DNA of 64,000 nt from Streptomyces sp. BA2 (GTDB taxonomy: Bacteria; Actinomycetota; Actinomycetes; Streptomycetales; Streptomycetaceae). The DNA is taken from contig NZ_WSRO01000002.1 in NCBI RefSeq assembly GCF_009769735.1, positions 6,869,001-6,933,000 of the forward strand. Reading direction: 5' to 3'. This document shows, in pieces, positions 32,193-41,528 of the stretch (positions are counted from its first letter, which is position 1; each line of letters opens with the position of its first letter). The notes beneath the pieces are model-generated. The model did not search any database. It saw only the letters and a list, made by a program, of their open reading frames with translations, and had not been told where the DNA came from. The position numbers and the translations under genes are program-made.

Positions 32193-32304
32193 TCTCCAGT
32201 CAACTCCCTTGTGGCCCAAGCTGGTTCGGCTCTACCGACCGGAGCATTGCGGGCCACATTCGCGTACGTCCATACTGTGCCGGTCACGCGGGGGGAGACC
32301 GGTG

Positions 32305-35300
32305 GTGAGCGGACGGCGCGTGCCCGCCGTGGTGCGGAGCGGCCGGTATCACGGGATGGTGCTCGGGGCAGCCGGGCTCGCCGTCCTGCTTGCGGCCACG
32401 GTGCTCGCCGCCCTTGCCGCGCTGACCGAGAAGGCCGTCGAAGGCGGGGTGCGGCAGCGGCTCGCCGCGGACCGGGATGCCGTCGTCGAGGTGGCAGGGC
32501 GTTACGGCGCCGACAGCGTGCGGCGGCTCGACGCGGACGTACGGGCCGCCGTCGACCGCACCTATGGCGACGTGCCCCACCGGACGCGGCTCGCGCTGCG
32601 GGCGCCCGCGGCACGCAACGACGAGCTCGCCGTGACCGAGGCCGGCGGGCAGCGGCGTGAGGACGCCACGGCGTCCGTGGTCGCCTTCGAAGGGGCCCGG
32701 TCCCATGCCGGCCTGGTGGCGGGCCGGTGGCCGCGCGGCGGTTCCGGCGGCTCATCCGGTGGGGTTACGGAGACGGTGCTGACCAGGGCATACGCCGCCG
32801 AGCTCGCGGTGCGTACCGGTGACGATGTGGTCGTGCGCGGCGCCGGTGAGCGGCTTGTGCGGATGCGGGTCGTCGGGCTCTACGCGACCGAGGGGCGCGA
32901 ACCCGCGGTCTGGGCGGGCCTGAGCAGCACATTCGGGACGGCCGACTCCATCGCGCTCGTGCCCCGGGGCGCGTTCACGGCGCGGCCGGGGCTCGCGAAG
33001 GACGCGGGCGCCCTGTGGCTCGGCGTGCCCGAGGCGCGGGGGCTGCGGCTCGGTGACATCGGTCCGCTGGCCGAGCGTGCCCGGCGGTTCGGAGGCAGCG
33101 ACGCCTCGCTCTCGGTGCTGCGGGGGAAGAACCCCGAGGCGGAGCTGACCGTGTCGGCGGGGCTGCGCAGGGCGCTCGACCGGCTCACCACGCCCATCGC
33201 CGTGGCCCGCGCCGGGCTCTACGTCCCCGCCACGCTGCTGGCCGCCCTCGCGGTCGCGGCCCTGGTGCTGACTGGGCGTCAGCTCGCCGAACACCGGCGC
33301 CCGGAGCTGGCGTTGCTGGCAGCCCGGGGTGCGGGAACGCGGCGGCTCGTGCTGTCGACCGGGGTGCAGTGGGCGCTGGTGGCCCTTCCGGTGGGGGGCG
33401 CCGCGCCCTTCCTCGCGGGGCCGCTGCTGGGCCTCCTTGAAGGGGCGGGGGTGCTGCACGGCGGGGTGCCGGACGCGGCCGCGATCGGTGCCGCCTGGGT
33501 GGCCGCCGCCTTCGCCGTCGTGGTGCACGGGTGCGCGGTGCTGGTGCCGACGGTGCGGGTGGTGCGGGACCGGCAGGCGGTGAGCCGACTGCGCCTGCGG
33601 GTGGGACGGTTCGCGGGGGCGCAGCGGGTCGGGGCCGATGTGGTCCTCGGGGCGGTGGCCGTCCTCGGGTGGCTGCAGTTGCGGCAGTACCGGTCGACGG
33701 TGACCGGTGACGGTGTCGACCCGGTGCTGGTGTTCGCGCCGGTGGTGATGACCACCGCGGCCGCCCTGCTCGTGCTGCGCCTGCTGCCCTTCCTTACGCG
33801 GGCCGTCGAGCCGCTCGCCCGGCGGGGCAGGGGGCTCGTGCTGCCGCTCGGCGGGTGGCAGATCGCCCGGCGCGCGGCACGGCACGCGGGGCCCGCCCTG
33901 GTGGTGACGCTCGCCCTGGCCGTCGCGGCCCTGAGCAGCACCGCCCTCGCCATTCTCGACCGGGGGGACCGCGACCAGGCCGCTTTCCAGGTGGGTGCGG
34001 ACCTGCGGATCGAACCGGGGGAGAGCGTGCCCGCCGGGGAGCGGCGTGCGACGTACGGTGCGCTGCCGGGGGTCGAGTCGGTCACTCCCGTGGTGATCAC
34101 GGAGGGCTACATCGGGCAGGACGCGGTGGCCGTCACCGGCATCAACACCGGGCGGGGCCCGGTGCCTTCGCTGCGGGGCGACCTCGCGGAGCGGCCCGTG
34201 CGGGAGATGGTCGCGCCGCTGGGGGAGGGGGTGCCGGCGCACGGGCTGGCTGTCGGCGACGTTCGTGCCGGTGGTGAACTCCCGCTCCGGGTGGGGCTGT
34301 CGGCCGATGGCCCCGGGCGTGCTGTGCCGGTGCGGCTGACGGTCTTCTTCGAGGACGAGGACGGCCTGGTCCACTCAAGTGCCGCCCTTCTTAAAGAAGG
34401 TGGTCTGCGGGCGGTGCCGCTGAGGGTGCCGGTACGGAGCGGTGGCCTACGGATCCTCCAGATCGACCTGAGCATGGCGGGCGAGACGGTGCGGCGTACG
34501 TACCGTCTCCGGATCGACCGGGTGCCGGGGCTCACCCAGGAGGCCCGCTGGCGCGACCTGCGCGAGGACGCGCCGGACCGCTACGGGGCGGGGTGCCCCG
34601 GGGCCGAGCCGCCGCGGGGTGCGGTGGGGGAGGCACCCGGACCGGTGCTCTGCCGTGACCGGCCCGGAGCCGGGGTGCTGCTCGACGCGGTGCTTCGGGG
34701 GCCCGACACGCGGCTCAAGTACCCGACGTGGAGCGTCCGTCTCGGTACGGACAACGCGAGGGGGCGCCCCGCGGCACCCGCTCTCGCCGATCGTGCGCTG
34801 CTGGACTCCGGGGCGGTACGGGTGGGGGACGTCGTGACGGTGCGGCGGAGTACGGGCGGCAGCGTCCGGCTGAAGGTGGTCGGGCGGATCGCGGCGGTGC
34901 CGGGCGAAGCGCGGGACCGGCCCCGGCTGCTCGCCGACTCGCGGGCGGTGGCGGCCCAGTTGGTGCTGAGCGGGGCGTTGCCGGGGTCGGAGAGCGCGTG
35001 GTGGGCGGGGGCGGCGCGGGGAGACGCGAGCGCCGCGTGGAAGGCGGTACGGGACAGCCCGCGGCTCGGAACCGCCGTGGACGTGCCGCACGCGCGCGTG
35101 GAGCTCGCCGAGGATCCGCTGCGGCGCGGGGCCCGTGGCGGCCTCTGGCTCTGCCTCGCCCTCGCACCGGCGTTCGCCGTCATCGCCTTCACGCTGCATA
35201 CGGTGCTGGCGGTGCGGGCGAGGGGGCGGGAGTTCGCGCTGCTGCGGGCGTTGGGGGTACGGCGGGGCCAACTCGCCGCGTACCTGTGGACGGAACAGTT

Positions 35301-35556
35301 GGCGCTGGCAGGGGTGGCGGCGCTCCTGGGCACGGGTCTCGGAGCGGGCCTCGCGGCCGTGATCATGCCGGTGGTGACGGTGGACGCGACGGGCGCCCCG
35401 GTCTTCCCCGGCCTGCTGACGGAGGTGCCGTGGGTGCGGGTCTGGCTGGTGGCGGGTGGAGTGACGGTGGTGATCTGCGGGGTGGTGAGCGGGGTGGCGC
35501 GGGTTCTGGGGCGGGTGGACCTGGGGCGGGTTCTGCGGGCGGGGGAGGACGTGTGA
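32305..35556 (+). CDS. Large FtsX-type ABC transporter permease
   Basis: About 1083 aa. TM1 near the N-terminus (MVLGAAGLAVLLAATVLAAL) is followed by a ~270-residue extracytoplasmic domain, a TM2-4 FtsX domain (~305-460, with the motif LALLAARGAGTRRLV), further helices, a second large extracytoplasmic domain (~540-930), and a final FtsX domain (~945-1080, FALLRALGVRRGQLAAYLW). Such permeases work with a cytoplasmic ATPase in envelope or lipoprotein/peptide handling, not classical import. GTG codons at 32302 and 32305 both follow GGGGGAG; 32305 has the better spacing. No ATPase gene adjoins it; the nearest are at 39296 and 41604. It ends at the hairpin array. Confidence 0.85.
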   Translation: MSGRRVPAVVRSGRYHGMVLGAAGLAVLLAATVLAALAALTEKAVEGGVRQRLAADRDAVVEVAGRYGADSVRRLDADVRAAVDRTYGDVPHRTRLALRAPAARNDELAVTEAGGQRREDATASVVAFEGARSHAGLVAGRWPRGGSGGSSGGVTETVLTRAYAAELAVRTGDDVVVRGAGERLVRMRVVGLYATEGREPAVWAGLSSTFGTADSIALVPRGAFTARPGLAKDAGALWLGVPEARGLRLGDIGPLAERARRFGGSDASLSVLRGKNPEAELTVSAGLRRALDRLTTPIAVARAGLYVPATLLAALAVAALVLTGRQLAEHRRPELALLAARGAGTRRLVLSTGVQWALVALPVGGAAPFLAGPLLGLLEGAGVLHGGVPDAAAIGAAWVAAAFAVVVHGCAVLVPTVRVVRDRQAVSRLRLRVGRFAGAQRVGADVVLGAVAVLGWLQLRQYRSTVTGDGVDPVLVFAPVVMTTAAALLVLRLLPFLTRAVEPLARRGRGLVLPLGGWQIARRAARHAGPALVVTLALAVAALSSTALAILDRGDRDQAAFQVGADLRIEPGESVPAGERRATYGALPGVESVTPVVITEGYIGQDAVAVTGINTGRGPVPSLRGDLAERPVREMVAPLGEGVPAHGLAVGDVRAGGELPLRVGLSADGPGRAVPVRLTVFFEDEDGLVHSSAALLKEGGLRAVPLRVPVRSGGLRILQIDLSMAGETVRRTYRLRIDRVPGLTQEARWRDLREDAPDRYGAGCPGAEPPRGAVGEAPGPVLCRDRPGAGVLLDAVLRGPDTRLKYPTWSVRLGTDNARGRPAAPALADRALLDSGAVRVGDVVTVRRSTGGSVRLKVVGRIAAVPGEARDRPRLLADSRAVAAQLVLSGALPGSESAWWAGAARGDASAAWKAVRDSPRLGTAVDVPHARVELAEDPLRRGARGGLWLCLALAPAFAVIAFTLHTVLAVRARGREFALLRALGVRRGQLAAYLWTEQLALAGVAALLGTGLGAGLAAVIMPVVTVDATGAPVFPGLLTEVPWVRVWLVAGGVTVVICGVVSGVARVLGRVDLGRVLRAGEDV

Positions 35557-35696
35557 GGGGACCCTGCGGGGCTTGGGCGGGGGTCTGCCGAGGCCTGGCG
35601 GCCTCGGTCCCCATGGCGGGCTACTTGGGCGGGGGGCCGCTGCGGCTGCGGGTCGTTGTGCGTTGCTGTGGGCGGACACCGGCGTGTGGCCTCGGG

Positions 35697-36222
35697 TTGT
35701 GCTGCCGTCTGGGGGTGCGTGCGGGGTGCGGGGTGCGGGGTCGGCGCGTGTGTGGGTGCGGGGCCGTGCCGGTATGTCCGTCCTCGCTATCGTCCGGTGG
35801 CCGTGGGGTTGCTTTGGCTCCGGAGTCTTTGGGAGCCGTGCTCCGGGCAGACATACCGGCACGTCCCCTTGCGTGCGTTGCCGTCTGGGGGTGCGTGCGT
35901 GCTGCGGGGCTGGCGCGTGTGTGGGTGCGGGGCCGTGCCGGTATGTCCGTCCTCGCTATCGTCCGGTGGCCGTGGGGTTGCTTTGGCTCCGGAGTCTTTG
36001 GGAGCCGTGCTCCGGGCAGACATACCGGCACGTCCCCTTGCGTGCGTTGCCGTCTGGGGGTGCGTGCGTGCTGCGGGGTCGGCGCGTGTGTGGGTGCGGG
36101 GCCGTGCCGGTATGTCCGTCCTCGCTATCGTCCGGTGGCCGTGGGGTTGCTTCGGTTCCGGGGTCTTCGGGAGCCGTGCTCCGGGCAGACATACCGGCAC
36201 GTCCCCTTGCGTGCGCTCCCGG
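35697..36222. repeat. Tandem array of three 169-bp units, each with a 97-bp inverted repeat
   Basis: Units are phased exactly 169 bp apart (GGTATGTCCG at 35771, 35940 and 36109). Each holds arms GTGCCGGTATGTC and GACATACCGGCAC at 35766-35862, 35935-36031 and 36104-36200. Inside each is a second hairpin (GGCTCC...GGAGCC; GGTTCC in unit 3, keeping a G-T pair). Units 1 and 2 are almost identical; unit 3 has four scattered changes in its central part. Diverged flanks share GTTGCTG...GGGCGGAC...CCGGCGTGTG on both sides (about 35655-35696 and 36238-36275). Because 169 is not a multiple of three, the same peptide appears in different frames in successive units, which argues against coding. Confidence 0.9.
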
Positions 36223-36350
36223 CTGCGGGGTGTCGTGTGTTGCTGCGGGCGGACGCCGGCGTGTGCCCTCGCGAGCGCTGCCGGCTGCGGGTGTGGCGCT
36301 TTCCTGTTGGCGATCACTGGCCACCCGACGTGTACGGATCACCCCCGGCA

Positions 36351-36424: not shown

Positions 36425-36476
36425 CTCCCCTCATCTCGGCGGACCCCCCACCCACCCTCGGCACCGCGGGGCAATC

Positions 36477-36545
36477 GGGTGGGTGGGTGGGAGAGCTTGT
36501 TCGTGCAGGGGGAGATGCGGGGTGATCGGGTGGGTGGGAGGGGGG
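36477..36545 (+). repeat. Two G-quadruplex motifs upstream of the second permease
   Basis: GGGTGGGTGGGTGGG (36477-36491) and GGGTGGGTGGGAGGGGGG (about 36528-36545) are canonical four-run motifs with single-base loops. Pyrimidine tracts CCCCCCACCCACCC (about 36443-36457) could alternatively pair with the first. The second ends 41 bases before the permease start. Confidence 0.75.
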
Positions 36546-36585
36546 TCTTGAAGTCGTGGGGGTGGCGTTGGGGCGAGGGGGGCTT

Positions 36586-39303
36586 ATGAGGCGGGGGGAG
36601 TTGGGGGTCTGGGGGTGCCTTGCCGTGCTTTTTGTTGTGCTCAGCGCCGTGGCCATCGCAGGGCCTGGGGTGCTGGACCGCGCCGCCGGGCGTGCCTTGG
36701 GGGACCGGCTCGAGCAGGTGCAGCGGGACGCGCCCGGCATCACCCACCGGGTGCGGTTCGGCGCGGAGGACGAGCAGGGCGGGGCGAAGAGCTCGCTGGG
36801 CGCCGACCTGCGGCGGGTCTCCACCGCCGTCGAGAACGCCGCCCCCGCCCCCCTCCGAGGCAAGCTGCTGCGCGACTCCACCCGGGTCGCCCTGCCCGGC
36901 GTACGGGCCCCTGACGGCACCACACTCTCCCTGGTGTACGCCTCCGACGCCCCGCCCCGCTCCGCGTACGCCGCTGGACGGCCCCCCGCCGCGCGGGGCC
37001 GCGTCGTGGAGATCGCCGTGTCCACCCACACCCGTGACGCCCTGAAGCTGCGCCTCGGGCAGGAACTCCGGCTCGGACGGGGCGCGTTGGAGATCGTGGA
37101 CGCACCGGCCCGGGTGGTCGGGTTCTACGCCGCGGATGGCGAGCGGCGGCTCTGGCGCGAGCAGCCCCTGCTCGCGCGCACGGGGCGGGACGCGCAGGGC
37201 GGTGCGGTGCGGTACGCAGGCGCCCTCCTCGCGCCGCGCGGCGTCGAACTGCTGCAGAGTCAGGCGGAGGCCGACCTCACCGTGATCTGGGGCATGCGCC
37301 TCGACCTCGGCGACGATGCCGCGCGCTTCGTCGGCGATCAGGGGCAGCGCGACTTCGAGCGCCTCATGCTCCGCTACCCGGACTCCGTGCGGGGCGTCAC
37401 GTGCGACCTCGGCATGATCAGCGGCGGCATGCCCTGCGCCTTCGGTTCGCATCCGGCCACCGAGTCGGAGACCGCCACCGAACTGCCGGACGCCTTGGAG
37501 GAGTTCCAGCGGCAGTGGCGGCAGGCCAGTGTCGTGATCTCCTTCGCGCTCGCCTCGGTGACGGCGGTCGGGCTCGCCGCCGTGGTGGTGGGCGCGCTCC
37601 TGTCCGTACGCCGTCGCCTCGACGCCCATCGGCTGCAACGCGCGCGTGGGGCATCGGCCCTGGGGATCGCGCTGGGACGTGCCGTGGCAACCGCACCGGC
37701 CGTGCTGCTGGGTTTCGTGGGCGGGTGCGTGGTCGCCTCGGCGCTGCCGGGGGCGTCGCCCGCGTACGGGCGAGGGCTGCTCGTCGCCGTGGGCGCGTGG
37801 CTGTTGCTGCCCCTGCTGACCTGGTGGGCCGTCCGGGACCGTGCCCTGCTTCGGGACAAGGCGGGAGGCGGTGGGCGCCGCGTCGTCGCCGAGGTGAGTG
37901 TCGTGGTCGTCGCAGCGGCGGGCGTCCTCGCACTGCGGGCCCGTGGGACCGCGGGCGGGGCGGGAAGCGATCCGCTGCTCGCCGCCGTGCCCGTGCTGCT
38001 CGGGCTCGCCACGGTCGTGGTGCTGGTGCGCCTCTACCCGTGGCCGGTACGCCTCGTCGCGCGCTGGGCCGCCCGTGGACGCGGAGCCGTGACCCTCATC
38101 GCGCTCTCCCGCGCCGCCAAGGAGGCTCCGGCTCGGGCGCTCGCGCTGCTCGTCCTGGTGGTGACGCTGGCCGGTGCCGTGTTCGGCGGTCTGGTCGCGG
38201 GGACGCTGACGGAGGGGCGGCGGGATGCCGCCGCCTGGCGGGTGGGCGCCGACGCGTCCTTCCTGGGAGCGGGGCGCGACCCGGACACCGCGAAGCGCGT
38301 GGCACGCGCGCGTGGAGTGCGGGAGAAGGTGGCGGTGCGGCAGCTGCGGGTCGATCCGGTGAGCACGAAGGACGGCGGGCGGTACGGGATCGCGAGCCTG
38401 GTGGGCGTCGACGGCGCGAAACTGCGCTCGGCGGCGGGGAGTTCGGCCGCCGCCCGCGCGCTGCGGGACGCCGGTCTCAGTGGCAGCAAGGGCGGTGGCG
38501 GCAGCGGCCGTGACATCCGCGTACTCGCCGACGCCGCCGACGCGGGGGACCTGCTGACCATCACCGTCCACGGCAAGGAGCGGCGCCTGCGCGTCGTGGG
38601 CACCCTCCCCGAAGCGGTGCGACGCGACCCCGCACTCGGCCCCGTAGGCGCCGCCACCGAGGCCAGGGACCACCTCCTGCTCGCCGACAACGGGGACCTC
38701 AAGGGCTTCGGCGCGAGCGAGTTCGAGGAGTCGGCCCTGCTCCTCTACGGCCCGCGCCTGGACGTCGCTGAGCTGCGCTCGGTGGTCCCGCGCGCCGCGC
38801 CCGGGGGCGCCGCCGGAGAGCTGCGGACCCGTGCCGAGGAGCAGGCCGAGGCCGACGAGGACGGTCTGATCGCGGCCCTGACCGCCGCGCACACCGCCTG
38901 CACCGCCCTGGCCGTGTTCCTCGCGCTGCTCGCCCTCGTGCTCGAACTCCTGCTGTCCGCCCCGGCACGCGGCAGCACCGCGGCCAGGCTGCGCACGCTG
39001 GGACTCGGAGGCCGCGCCACCGCCGGGCTGCATCTGCTCCAGCTGCTGCCCCTGGTGCTCGCGGCCGTGGCCGGCGGCGTCGCGCTCGGTCTGACGCTGC
39101 CCGGTCTGCTCGGACCCGCCCTCGACCTGCGGGAGTTCACCGGCGGGCCCACCGAGCCCGCCCTGCGGGCCGACGCGCTGTTCACCGTGGTTCTGGCGAC
39201 CGGAACCGTCGCCCTGATGGCCGTCGCGGTGGGTGTGGAGACCTGGCTGGGGCGGCGGCGTGGTCTTGGAGCTGTGCTGCGACTGGGGAGGAACGATGAC
39301 TGA
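36586..39303 (+). CDS. Second large FtsX-type ABC transporter permease
   Basis: 905 aa. TM1 (WGCLAVLFVVLSAVAIAG), then an extracytoplasmic domain of ~280 residues, a middle membrane block (~315-560), a second extracytoplasmic segment (~565-755), and a C-terminal FtsX block (~760-900) with LRTLGLGGRATAGLHLLQLL. It is related in plan to the 32305 permease but divergent in sequence. Start ATG at 36586 has GAGGGGGG just upstream. The next gene's ATG lies 8 bases inside this coding sequence, so permease and ATPase are translationally coupled and are probably one transporter. Substrate unknown. Confidence 0.85.
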   Translation: MRRGELGVWGCLAVLFVVLSAVAIAGPGVLDRAAGRALGDRLEQVQRDAPGITHRVRFGAEDEQGGAKSSLGADLRRVSTAVENAAPAPLRGKLLRDSTRVALPGVRAPDGTTLSLVYASDAPPRSAYAAGRPPAARGRVVEIAVSTHTRDALKLRLGQELRLGRGALEIVDAPARVVGFYAADGERRLWREQPLLARTGRDAQGGAVRYAGALLAPRGVELLQSQAEADLTVIWGMRLDLGDDAARFVGDQGQRDFERLMLRYPDSVRGVTCDLGMISGGMPCAFGSHPATESETATELPDALEEFQRQWRQASVVISFALASVTAVGLAAVVVGALLSVRRRLDAHRLQRARGASALGIALGRAVATAPAVLLGFVGGCVVASALPGASPAYGRGLLVAVGAWLLLPLLTWWAVRDRALLRDKAGGGGRRVVAEVSVVVVAAAGVLALRARGTAGGAGSDPLLAAVPVLLGLATVVVLVRLYPWPVRLVARWAARGRGAVTLIALSRAAKEAPARALALLVLVVTLAGAVFGGLVAGTLTEGRRDAAAWRVGADASFLGAGRDPDTAKRVARARGVREKVAVRQLRVDPVSTKDGGRYGIASLVGVDGAKLRSAAGSSAAARALRDAGLSGSKGGGGSGRDIRVLADAADAGDLLTITVHGKERRLRVVGTLPEAVRRDPALGPVGAATEARDHLLLADNGDLKGFGASEFEESALLLYGPRLDVAELRSVVPRAAPGGAAGELRTRAEEQAEADEDGLIAALTAAHTACTALAVFLALLALVLELLLSAPARGSTAARLRTLGLGGRATAGLHLLQLLPLVLAAVAGGVALGLTLPGLLGPALDLREFTGGPTEPALRADALFTVVLATGTVALMAVAVGVETWLGRRRGLGAVLRLGRNDD

Positions 39304-40210
39304 GCTCGCCGATCTGGAGGCCCGCGCGAACGCCGCGCGCCGTCCCGCGGGGGACGAGGGCCTTGTCGTCTGCGACAACCTCGTACGCGTCTATCGCACC
39401 GACAAGGTGGAGGTGCAGGCACTCCAGGGGCTCGACCTGGTGGTCGGGGAAGGGGAGTGCGTGGCCCTCGTGGGCGCGTCCGGCTCCGGCAAGTCCACCC
39501 TTCTGTCGATCCTCTCGGGGCTCGATCTGCCGACCGCGGGACGGGCCCGGGTCGCCGGGCACGACCTGCTCTCCATGGGGCGCCGCGAACGTCTGGGCTA
39601 CCGCAGGAACACCGTCGGGTTCGTATGGCAGCAGACGGGGCGCAATCTGCTCCCGTACCTCACGGCTGTCGAGAACGTGGCGCTGCCGATGAAGTACGCG
39701 CGCGTGCCCCGTCGCGAGCGCACGGCGCGGGCCGCCGAACTGCTCGGCGTGCTCGGTGTCGCGTACTGCGGCGACCGGCGGCCCGCCGAGCTGTCCGGCG
39801 GTGAGCAGCAGCGCGTCGCCGTGGCGGTCGCCACCGCCAACGCCCCGAAGGTGCTGCTCGCCGACGAGCCCACCGGGGAGCTGGACACGGCCAGTGGCGA
39901 GGAGGTGTTCGCCGCCCTTCGCCGTGCCAATGAGGAGCTCGGGGCGACCGTCCTGGTGGTCACGCATGATCCGCTCGTCTCCGGTCAGGTCCGCCGCACG
40001 GTGCGCATCCGGGACGGCCGTACGGCCACGGAGACGCTGCGTGAACAGGGCGGTGCGGGCGAGGAGTTCACGGTTCTGGACCGGGCGGGGCGGTTGCAGC
40101 TGCCGCGCGACTACGTGGAGCGCTACGGGCTGCGCGACCGCGTACGGCTCACGGAGGAGCCGGACCACATCGGCGTCTGGGGCGCGGGGCCGGACGACTT
40201 CACACCTTGA
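39296..40210 (+). CDS. ABC transporter ATP-binding protein (MacB/LolD type) with C-terminal extension
   Basis: 304 aa. Walker A is GASGSGKST, the Q-loop lies in FVWQQTGRN, the signature is LSGGEQQRVAVA, Walker B is VLLADEPTGELD, and the switch His is in VVTHDP. It partners the permease whose end it overlaps by 8 bases. Beyond the nucleotide-binding domain is a ~65-residue extension (EFTVLDRAGRLQLPRDYVER) resembling an AbrB/SpoVT-like 'strand-loop' element found in some streptomycete ABC ATPases. The start is fixed by the family N-terminus and the overlap. Confidence 0.92.
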   Translation: MTELADLEARANAARRPAGDEGLVVCDNLVRVYRTDKVEVQALQGLDLVVGEGECVALVGASGSGKSTLLSILSGLDLPTAGRARVAGHDLLSMGRRERLGYRRNTVGFVWQQTGRNLLPYLTAVENVALPMKYARVPRRERTARAAELLGVLGVAYCGDRRPAELSGGEQQRVAVAVATANAPKVLLADEPTGELDTASGEEVFAALRRANEELGATVLVVTHDPLVSGQVRRTVRIRDGRTATETLREQGGAGEEFTVLDRAGRLQLPRDYVERYGLRDRVRLTEEPDHIGVWGAGPDDFTP

Positions 40211-40289: not shown

Positions 40290-41528
40290 ATGGCTCTTCG
40301 CATGGCTGACACCCCCACACCCGTGCGCCACCACCGCAGACCCCGCACGGCAGTCCTCGCCACGCTCGCCTCCGTGGTGACCGCCCTGGTCGCCGCCCTC
40401 CTCGCCTGGCCCGGCGCCGAACGCGCCGACGCCGCGCCCAGCACCTTCAGCCACCCCGGAGTCACCGTCTCCCGCGGCCAGTTGGACTTCACCAGGGAGA
40501 AGGTCAACGCCGGCGCCCAGCCCTGGAAGGGCGCCTACAACCAGATGATGGGCAGCAAGTACGCCTCCCTCTCGCGCACGCCCAAGCCCCGCGCGGTCGT
40601 CGAGTGCGGCTCCTACTCGGACCCCAACCACGGCTGCACCGACGAGCGCGAGGACGCGATAGCCGCGTACACCACGGCACTCGCCTGGTACATCACCCGC
40701 GACGACCGCTACGCCAAGAAGTCCATCCAGCTGATGGACGCCTGGTCCGGCACCATCAAGGACCACACCAACAGCAACGCCCCCCTGCAGGCCGGCTGGG
40801 CGGGCTCGTCCTGGCCCAAGGCCGCCGAGATCATCAAGCACACGTACACCGGCGGTTGGGGCAACTCGGGCCGCTTCGCGACGATGCTGCGCAACGTCTA
40901 CCTGCCCGAGATCATCAACGGCTCCAATTCCAACGGCAACTGGGAGCTGTCGATGATGGAGGCCGCCATCGGCATCTCCGTCTTCATCGAGGACAAGGGG
41001 GCGTACGACAAGGCGATGGCGAAGTTCCGCACGCGTACCGCCGCGTACGTCTATCTCGCATCCGACGGCGAGCTGCCGAAGACCGTGCCGAGCCAGAACC
41101 TGGACACCCGCGCGAAGATCGTCAAGTACTGGCAGGGACAGGGCACCTTCACCACCGGGCTCACCCAGGAGACGTGCCGCGACTTCACCCACACCGGATA
41201 CGGACTCTCCGCGATCTCCCATGTCGCCGAGACCAGCCGCATCCAGGGCGAGGACCTCTACAAGACGGACGTGGGCGAGCGGCTGCGCCAGGGCCTCGGT
41301 TTTCAGGCCAAGTACGAACTGGGCGAGGCGCCCCCGAGCTCGCTCTGCGGCGGCTCGGTCCACCGGGCCCTCGGGCCGGTCACCGAGGTCGGCTACAACG
41401 CGCTCCACAACCGCCTCGGCCACGCCATGACCAACACCCAGAAGCTCACCGAGCAGAAGCGCCCGGCGGGTTCCAACAACCTGTTCGTCGCCTGGGAGAC
41501 CCTGACCCACGCCGACAACCCCAGCTGA
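40290..41528 (+). CDS. Secreted alginate-lyase-family protein
   Basis: 412 aa. A long n-region with HHRRPRT and a hydrophobic core ending AERADAAPS predicts export, possibly by Tat (paired arginines). The mature part is an alpha/alpha-toroid of the alginate lyase family (PF05426-like): NGNWELSMMEAAIGIS is the conserved Asn/Trp region and FTHTGYGLSAISHVAET carries the catalytic-type His/Tyr. Substrate may be alginate or another uronate polymer. ATG at 40290 was chosen; ATG at 40302 is also in frame. It is followed by a hairpin and sits between two ABC ATPase genes with no obvious link to them. Confidence 0.85.
   Translation: MALRMADTPTPVRHHRRPRTAVLATLASVVTALVAALLAWPGAERADAAPSTFSHPGVTVSRGQLDFTREKVNAGAQPWKGAYNQMMGSKYASLSRTPKPRAVVECGSYSDPNHGCTDEREDAIAAYTTALAWYITRDDRYAKKSIQLMDAWSGTIKDHTNSNAPLQAGWAGSSWPKAAEIIKHTYTGGWGNSGRFATMLRNVYLPEIINGSNSNGNWELSMMEAAIGISVFIEDKGAYDKAMAKFRTRTAAYVYLASDGELPKTVPSQNLDTRAKIVKYWQGQGTFTTGLTQETCRDFTHTGYGLSAISHVAETSRIQGEDLYKTDVGERLRQGLGFQAKYELGEAPPSSLCGGSVHRALGPVTEVGYNALHNRLGHAMTNTQKLTEQKRPAGSNNLFVAWETLTHADNPS

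Follow-up and report, generated by a model that had tools for sequence, protein, structure and literature searches.

A tandem hairpin array in Streptomyces is a local multiplication of a dispersed intergenic palindromic repeat whose copies may overwrite one another

What is the three-unit array of hairpins that lies in the window, as the whole 64,000-nucleotide stretch of DNA analysed here is called, and what has kept the arms of its hairpins complementary? An initial annotation, made from the sequence, had described three 169-bp units with exact spacing, and the repeat search confirmed this arrangement at 35726-36232 (TRF score 937; Table 1). The 13-bp arms GTGCCGGTATGTC and GACATACCGGCAC are perfect in all three units, as had been claimed, and the hairpin of unit 1 measures 97 bp end to end, from arm to arm. 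The repeat search also assigned to the array repeat 24-nt terminal inverted arms that are 88% complementary. The G-T wobble pair in the inner hairpin of unit 3 was found by eye, the diverged half-units described on the two flanks are present, and the period of 169 is, as remarked earlier, indivisible by three. Folding of the units as RNA gave -58.0, -58.0 and -57.5 kcal/mol for units 1 to 3 (z -5.4, -5.4 and -4.4), and none of the shuffled sequences folded as well. The opposite strand folds too, with -50.8 and -48.2 kcal/mol in units 1 and 3, the two units tested.

Table 1. Features of the array and its surroundings, in window positions. R1 is a covariance model built from 26 sequences, units 1 and 3 among them.
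Feature	Position	Strand	Basis
Tandem unit 1 (169 bp)	35726..35894	+	Repeat search of window
Tandem unit 2 (169 bp; 98% to unit 1)	35895..36063	+	Repeat search of window
Tandem unit 3 (169 bp; 92% to unit 1)	36064..36232	+	Repeat search of window
Hairpin core 1	35755..35870 (= C2:6904755-6904870)	+	Covariance model R1, 130.9 bits
Hairpin core 2	35924..36039	+	Covariance model R1, 130.9 bits
Hairpin core 3	36093..36208	+	Covariance model R1, 125.1 bits
Left 13-bp arm of unit 1	35766..35778, partner 35850-35862	+	Sequence and fold
Degenerate right half-element, left of array	35643..35694	+	Repeat family D5, 87% to 36220-36271; half assignment by eye
Degenerate right half-element, right of array	36220..36271	+	Repeat family D5; half assignment by eye
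Left neighbour gene, FtsX-like permease	32299..35553 (predicted start)	+	Pfam PF02687
Right neighbour gene, no Pfam match	36586..39300 (predicted start)	+	Pfam search
ABC ATPase, next after right neighbour gene	39293-40207		Pfam
G-run module GGGTGGGTGGGTGGG	36466..36499	+	Repeat family D4

The array had been placed between two ABC permease genes. This holds for the left neighbour; the right one has no Pfam match and is itself followed by an ABC ATPase gene. An alginate-lyase-domain protein is encoded amid the ABC transporter genes (window 40323-41525), and a c-di-AMP (ydaO/yuaA) riboswitch was detected with Rfam at 772-935 (88.5 bits). By eye, a G-quadruplex-like module TGCGGGGCAATCGGGTGGGTGGGCGGGAAAGCTTGTTCG was recognized at 36466-36550, and a similar run follows many copies of the hairpin in the host genome on their 3' side, in the same orientation. 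The G-run module may be a separate repeat within a mosaic.

When the unit was compared with the host genome (G000; 10.04 Mb, two contigs), blastn returned 33 matches ranging from full units down to short pieces, and R1 identified 25 full hairpins at 21 sites, tandem units being counted as one site (38 rows were obtained, 13 of which were the same hairpins on the other strand). Two further tandem pairs were found, at 5270929/5271100 and 5366897/5367068, each 171 bp apart. Since the element occupies 21 places in the host genome, three of which carry tandem units, the array is a local event: it consists of local tandem copies of a dispersed, non-coding, intergenic hairpin DNA element.

The occurrence of the element was then followed in other genomes. 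Blastn gave no match in 60 relatives, as would be expected of a species-specific repeat, a possibility that was ruled out because seven of the same 60 genomes match the covariance model; the blastn result was misleading because this search misses copies with other arms. In the genus, R1 matched 58 of 295 genomes, with at most 12 candidates scored per genome. A broader model, R2, built from 35 sequences, had matches in 74 of the 197 genomes sampled from the order, in one of six genera, and in nine of 296 from the class, in one of 114 actinobacterial genera (the two samples overlap, and both were searched with stricter filters). As far as sampled, the element appears to be confined to one genus, which the named records indicate to be Streptomyces: a DNA pattern search identified matching stretches, seven in all, in five Streptomyces records (NRRL B-1347, S. 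huasconensis, NBC_01446 with three, S. antnestii and CB01635). Copy numbers were 25 in the host genome, 17 in G332, 14 in G304, 10 in G117 and one in another genome; seven genomes searched at E 1e-6 had between 11 and 25 each. The initial annotation had considered that the unit might prove to be a known, widely dispersed repeat present at hundreds of loci; this is not so, as even with lax filters 1 to 25 copies were found in each of twelve genomes. Searches of plasmid and phage collections yielded no match to the element. No Rfam family reached its gathering score in the array, and an Rfam search of the family gave four matches with E values of 0.45-8.8, far under the gathering scores. In the open literature, searched by arm sequences and by Streptomyces palindrome and repeat topics, no description of the family was found; subscription papers were outside the scope of this search.

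The unit is about 170-185 bp long and comprises a hairpin core of roughly 105-120 nt with about 30-40 nt on each side. Its outer ends, CGGGGCCG ... CGTCCCC, are near-invariant across subfamilies, and its length is largely kept. The arms vary by lineage yet stay complementary: they are CCGGTATGTCCG in the host genome, GGGGGTATGTGCG in G117, GGGGGCATGTACG in G332, CGGGGGGTGTCCG in the group of genomes referred to as clade A, and CCGGTACATCC elsewhere. In an alignment of 35 sequences, changes on both sides that preserved pairing in at least one sequence were found at 10 of 21 consensus pairs, a count with some built-in bias toward pairing because the sequences had been found with a structure model; the arm types are very different between subfamilies despite this recruitment. 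Within genomes the stems are nearly invariant. Of 3090 pair cells, counted in length classes with three or more copies and from copies that reach at least 75% identity to the class consensus, 3044 were unchanged, 29 were singly broken, 8 were single wobbles, 8 carried double changes and were paired, and 1 carried a double change and was broken. These results bear out the initial annotation in that structure is conserved and a reading frame is not. Six of the eight paired double changes belong to copies of another arm type assigned to the same class (G332 L179 and L181; G187 L089). The other two are single-copy changes (L079 of the host genome and G271 L211), which fit either selection or template switching from arm to arm, a route to compensatory changes that has been described elsewhere (PMC8794818). 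That the arms are better conserved than the spacers suggests that the arms are also recognized or selected.

Several arm types occur at different sites of G332 (L145-L183), one of them very like the type of Streptomyces sp. NBC_01446, and subfamilies therefore coexist or move between lineages. A number of irregular copies were also noticed. L026 (G000:C2:4642484-4642579) has its right part deleted and adjoins a tRNA-like gene, as judged by eye, and L027 and L028 are similar deletion derivatives. In the left flank of L064 a collapsed copy, GGGGCCGCGCCGGTATGGCACGTCCCC, which has kept both ends and lost the interior, lies just upstream of the full copy. In the right flanks of clade A copies (L215, L218-L283) the modules CTCGCCGTACGCGGG and GCGTACGGCGGCGGG resemble, by eye, inversions of each other, which would fit template switching, and in several of these flanks a second short hairpin repeat, GTGCCGCTAAGGGCGGCAC, comes next (by eye).

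Whether copies in different genomes occupy corresponding places was determined from their flanks. With the element and 200 bp on each side masked, 8 of the 14 G304 copies matched copies of the host genome on both flanks, in the same orientation. Copies were taken with flanks from G304 (14), G117 (10) and G332 (16 of 17), and those of G187 and G271 came from the R1 scan of the genus, in which scoring was limited to 12 candidates per genome; more shared sites were found among the six genomes, some on one flank only. In clade A, 13 of 15 copies of G447, 12 of 13 of G426 and 11 of 19 of G441 matched a G221 copy on both flanks, and one further G447 copy did so on one flank. No disagreement in orientation relative to the origin was seen among linked sites. 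One neighbourhood is rearranged: one flank of G117 L163 matches L076 of the host genome in forward orientation, the other in inverted orientation. These observations show that many sites are old and shared by descent with the same orientation.

Comparison of the same sites also revealed losses. In the nnrD-alr interval (gene names by eye), compared in 30 loci, the element was recognized by eye in 6 of the 22 loci with readable flanks. Full hairpins are present in the host genome, in G304 and, with other arms, in G332, and remnants were found in G185 (left half), G237 (right half) and G147 (left end). At the G221 L222 site, G447 has no hairpin and keeps GGGTCGGGGCCGCGC, which is a deletion scar. 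Thus, copies are lost through deletion of the hairpin, sometimes leaving one end behind. At the G221 L218 site, G426 lacks 185 bp, made up of the 119-bp hairpin with 30 and 36 bp beside it, and no clear target duplication is visible; G447 has no trace of the element there. The 185-bp unit of presence and absence agrees with the 169-171 bp tandem period in the host genome.

If a site is inherited, its hairpin might be expected to resemble that of the same site in a relative. Between the host genome and G304, interiors were 0.67 identical at the same site and 0.68 at different sites, and among the copies within each genome the values were 0.84 and 0.89, respectively. The arms were 0.90-0.93 identical between the two genomes versus 0.95-1.00 within genomes, and same-site flanks within 100 bp were at or near the shuffled baseline. 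In a maximum-likelihood tree of 81 hairpins from six genomes (16 G332 copies were used in the tree and in the identity counts), the genome label changed 7 times (minimum 5) and the site label 33 times (minimum 15), as counted over 38 rows at 16 shared sites, some of them linked by one flank. One exception was found: G117 L090 and G271 L209 group by site and not by genome. These results show that in the group of the host genome hairpins are more like other hairpins of the same genome than like the hairpin at the same site in a relative.

In clade A the flanks can still be aligned. At a distance of 80-100 bp from the hairpin, same-site identity was about 0.8; within 40 bp it was 0.5-0.7, equal to the identity between different sites of one genome. 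With such a profile, an exchange would extend over the hairpin and some tens of bases beyond it. Mean interior identities in this clade were 0.88 and 0.86 for same-site pairs and 0.88 and 0.88 within genomes; because these means are equal for both types of pair, they do not show homogenisation in clade A, the evidence for which comes from a single G221 variant. This variant, CCAACCAGCTGC, occurs in 11 of the 20 G221 copies; GGGGCCGTGTCGG occurs in 14 of the same 20. Neither is found in the 47 copies of G441, G447 and G426. CCAACCAGCTGC was also found in one copy outside the clade set (L110 of G284).

The orientation of the hairpins was compared with the direction of replication, dnaA being taken as the origin. 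In ten genomes, 122 of 163 sites have the hairpin strand directed away from the origin, a figure that is inflated because related genomes share sites. After linking of shared sites, 54 of 79 were co-oriented (p 0.0015) in the eight genomes of this count, from which G522, G531, G533 and the multi-contig G304 and G187 were omitted and in which a few links rest on one flank; this amounts to a mild preference of the hairpin strand for the lagging-strand template. By group, 22 of 29 sites were co-oriented in clade A and 32 of 50 in the others (p 0.065), with G117 reversed (3 of 10). Of the flanking genes, 79 of 152 were co-oriented with replication. The hairpin strand is G-rich (skew +0.117 over 148 loci), and general strand composition may therefore contribute to the bias.

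The position of the hairpins relative to genes, based on approximate gene calls by a codon-position score, bears on the possibility that the element acts as structured RNA, a transcribed hairpin that would serve as a terminator, as a shield of mRNA 3' ends or as a repeated small RNA. Sites lie between convergent genes in 20 cases, between tandem genes in 48 and between divergent genes in 7, with 2 inside an open frame and 2 without both neighbours. The very stable fold, the compensatory changes and the rarity of divergent as compared with convergent gene pairs (7 versus 20, p 0.02) would suit an RNA. However, 64 of 152 neighbouring genes are on the hairpin strand (p 0.06), that is, there is no positive orientation with genes, which disfavours a repeated small RNA or an operon RNA; the stem is followed by CCCCT without a T-run, there is no Rfam match, and compensatory changes can also arise from template switching (PMC8794818). 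A role as structured RNA is accordingly very unlikely. An intrinsic terminator was considered separately and rejected, as the stem runs into CCCCT without a T-run and is not oriented with the gene strand. A high-scoring open frame crosses the hairpin at 2 of 79 sites, where several frames are open at once, which speaks neither for nor against coding at these two. The neighbouring proteins are diverse: among 137 proteins scanned from 71 sites the commonest Pfam family, ABC_tran, accounts for 5, and the 25 commonest of the 219 families include none of mobile elements.

Bacterial intergenic palindromes such as ERIC and Correia/NEMIS are imperfect and roughly 100-150 bp long. The present family, compared with them by description, is likewise an imperfect intergenic palindrome, but it is found in another phylum, and for ERIC and Correia/NEMIS we know of no description of lineage-specific covarying arms. 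MITEs of DDE transposons are short, non-coding, flanked by terminal inverted repeats and dispersed between genes. The family shares these properties, but its interior is the hairpin spacer only. The one clean pair of presence and absence (L218 versus L285) has no clear target-site duplication, and no autonomous copy was seen among the 25 commonest Pfam families of the neighbouring proteins. Stem-loop families have also been described in Yersiniae, Bordetellae and Enterococci (PMC1590033).

Judged by the likeness of its architecture, the family is most likely a bacterial intergenic palindromic repeat closest to REPINs. Like REPINs and the REP-BIME elements with RAYT transposases of Pseudomonas and enterobacteria (PMC3116915), it forms intergenic hairpins with conserved inverted ends and a variable spacer of kept length, has compensatory changes, occurs in tandem clusters that include the flanks, and leaves single halves as remnants. 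Its copies could therefore be non-autonomous elements moved as single-stranded hairpins by a Y1 transposase or another enzyme of single-stranded DNA, which would re-insert them at preferred intergenic targets and whose divergence the lineage-specific arms would follow. Besides the architecture, the lagging-strand bias expected of single-strand transposition and the better conservation of arms than spacer are in accord with this explanation. Against it, the Y1 transposase family PF01797 was absent from 8 of the 12 carriers searched (G304, G117, G187, G271, G241, G105, G128 and the host genome, G000); it was present in four (G332, G185, G291 and G232) versus 1 of 10 non-carriers (Fisher p 0.32). 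Movement by a Y1 transposase as the general driver was rejected for this absence. The ends CGGGGCCG ... CGTCCCC do not show, by eye, the GT(A/G)G head that has been described for REPs (PMC2817692), in a paper that also gives usually over 100 REPs per genome as opposed to the 1 to 25 copies found here. The same 2010 paper reports that no RAYT homologues had been found in major lineages other than gammaproteobacteria. The family further differs from REPINs in its restriction to one genus, its many sites shared by descent and its homogenisation within genomes, and mobile-element families are missing from the commonest neighbours (see above). Taking these differences into account, REPIN-like movement appears unlikely.

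Another explanation is that the element is a functional chromosomal site, where a protein with a role in replication, segregation or nucleoid organisation would bind the hairpin or the inverted arms, selection would keep the sites, and arms and protein would diversify together. At the sites shared with G304 the flanks are at or near the shuffled baseline while the arms are 0.90-0.93 identical, there is a replication-strand bias without a gene-strand bias, and the arms are nearly invariant within genomes, all of which would be expected of such a site. On the other hand, no match was found in 237 of 295 and in 123 of 197 genomes (stricter filters), which shows that the genus can do without the element; relatives differ in copy number and in the sites occupied, and in the group of the host genome the spacer is homogenised too, beyond the arms. 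We regard a functional site as improbable, more so than REPIN-like movement. Of the three ideas put forward in the initial annotation, a small RNA is disfavoured (see above), a protein-binding or nucleoid-anchoring array is conceivable, and a non-autonomous hairpin element amplified in tandem comes nearest to the findings.

The best explanation in our opinion, for which the chances appear evenly balanced, is that paralogous copies overwrite one another at old sites, in a process presumably started by the DNA hairpin. The hairpin would be exposed in single-stranded form, most frequently on the template of the lagging strand, and would provoke breakage or template switching, and the gap would be filled from another copy. 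In this manner paralogues would replace the hairpin together with some tens of adjoining bases, and the more distant flanks would stay put. Template switching from arm to arm may help the arms to stay complementary, and unequal exchange between direct repeats around a copy could produce tandem arrays such as that of the window. In E. coli, palindrome-induced breakage and rearrangement involving SbcCD and RecA have been reported for longer palindromes. Several observations count against overwriting. The hairpins are short relative to break-inducing palindromes (460 bp in one study), the strand bias is small, is due chiefly to a single clade and runs the other way in G117, one pair of copies clusters by site, the clade A means do not discriminate, and the G221 variant is also found in G284. 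Conservation of the arms above that of the interiors within genomes is not a prediction of plain gene conversion and counts against it. Recurrent insertion at favoured sites would likewise give same-site copies with genome-specific sequence. The complete picture, a transposase-free 'site-holding' repeat that overwrites itself at inherited sites, is triggered by its hairpin on the lagging strand and has arms evolving in concert at many sites in each lineage, is put forward tentatively, as rather unlikely when all its parts are taken together.

For the best-studied intergenic palindromes of bacteria, a transposase provides the explanation. The family described here holds many inherited sites, can be uniform within a genome and changes both arms together between lineages, and most of the carriers searched have no Y1 transposase. 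If its copies do overwrite one another, within-genome homogenisation of short bacterial repeats becomes measurable, and should the arms also be recognized by a protein that diversifies with them, the element would represent a chromosomal landmark of a new class. The family also cautions against taking compensatory changes in hairpins of this kind as proof of an RNA function, and its many natural hairpins, in a genus of practical importance, offer material for studies of hairpin-induced recombination.
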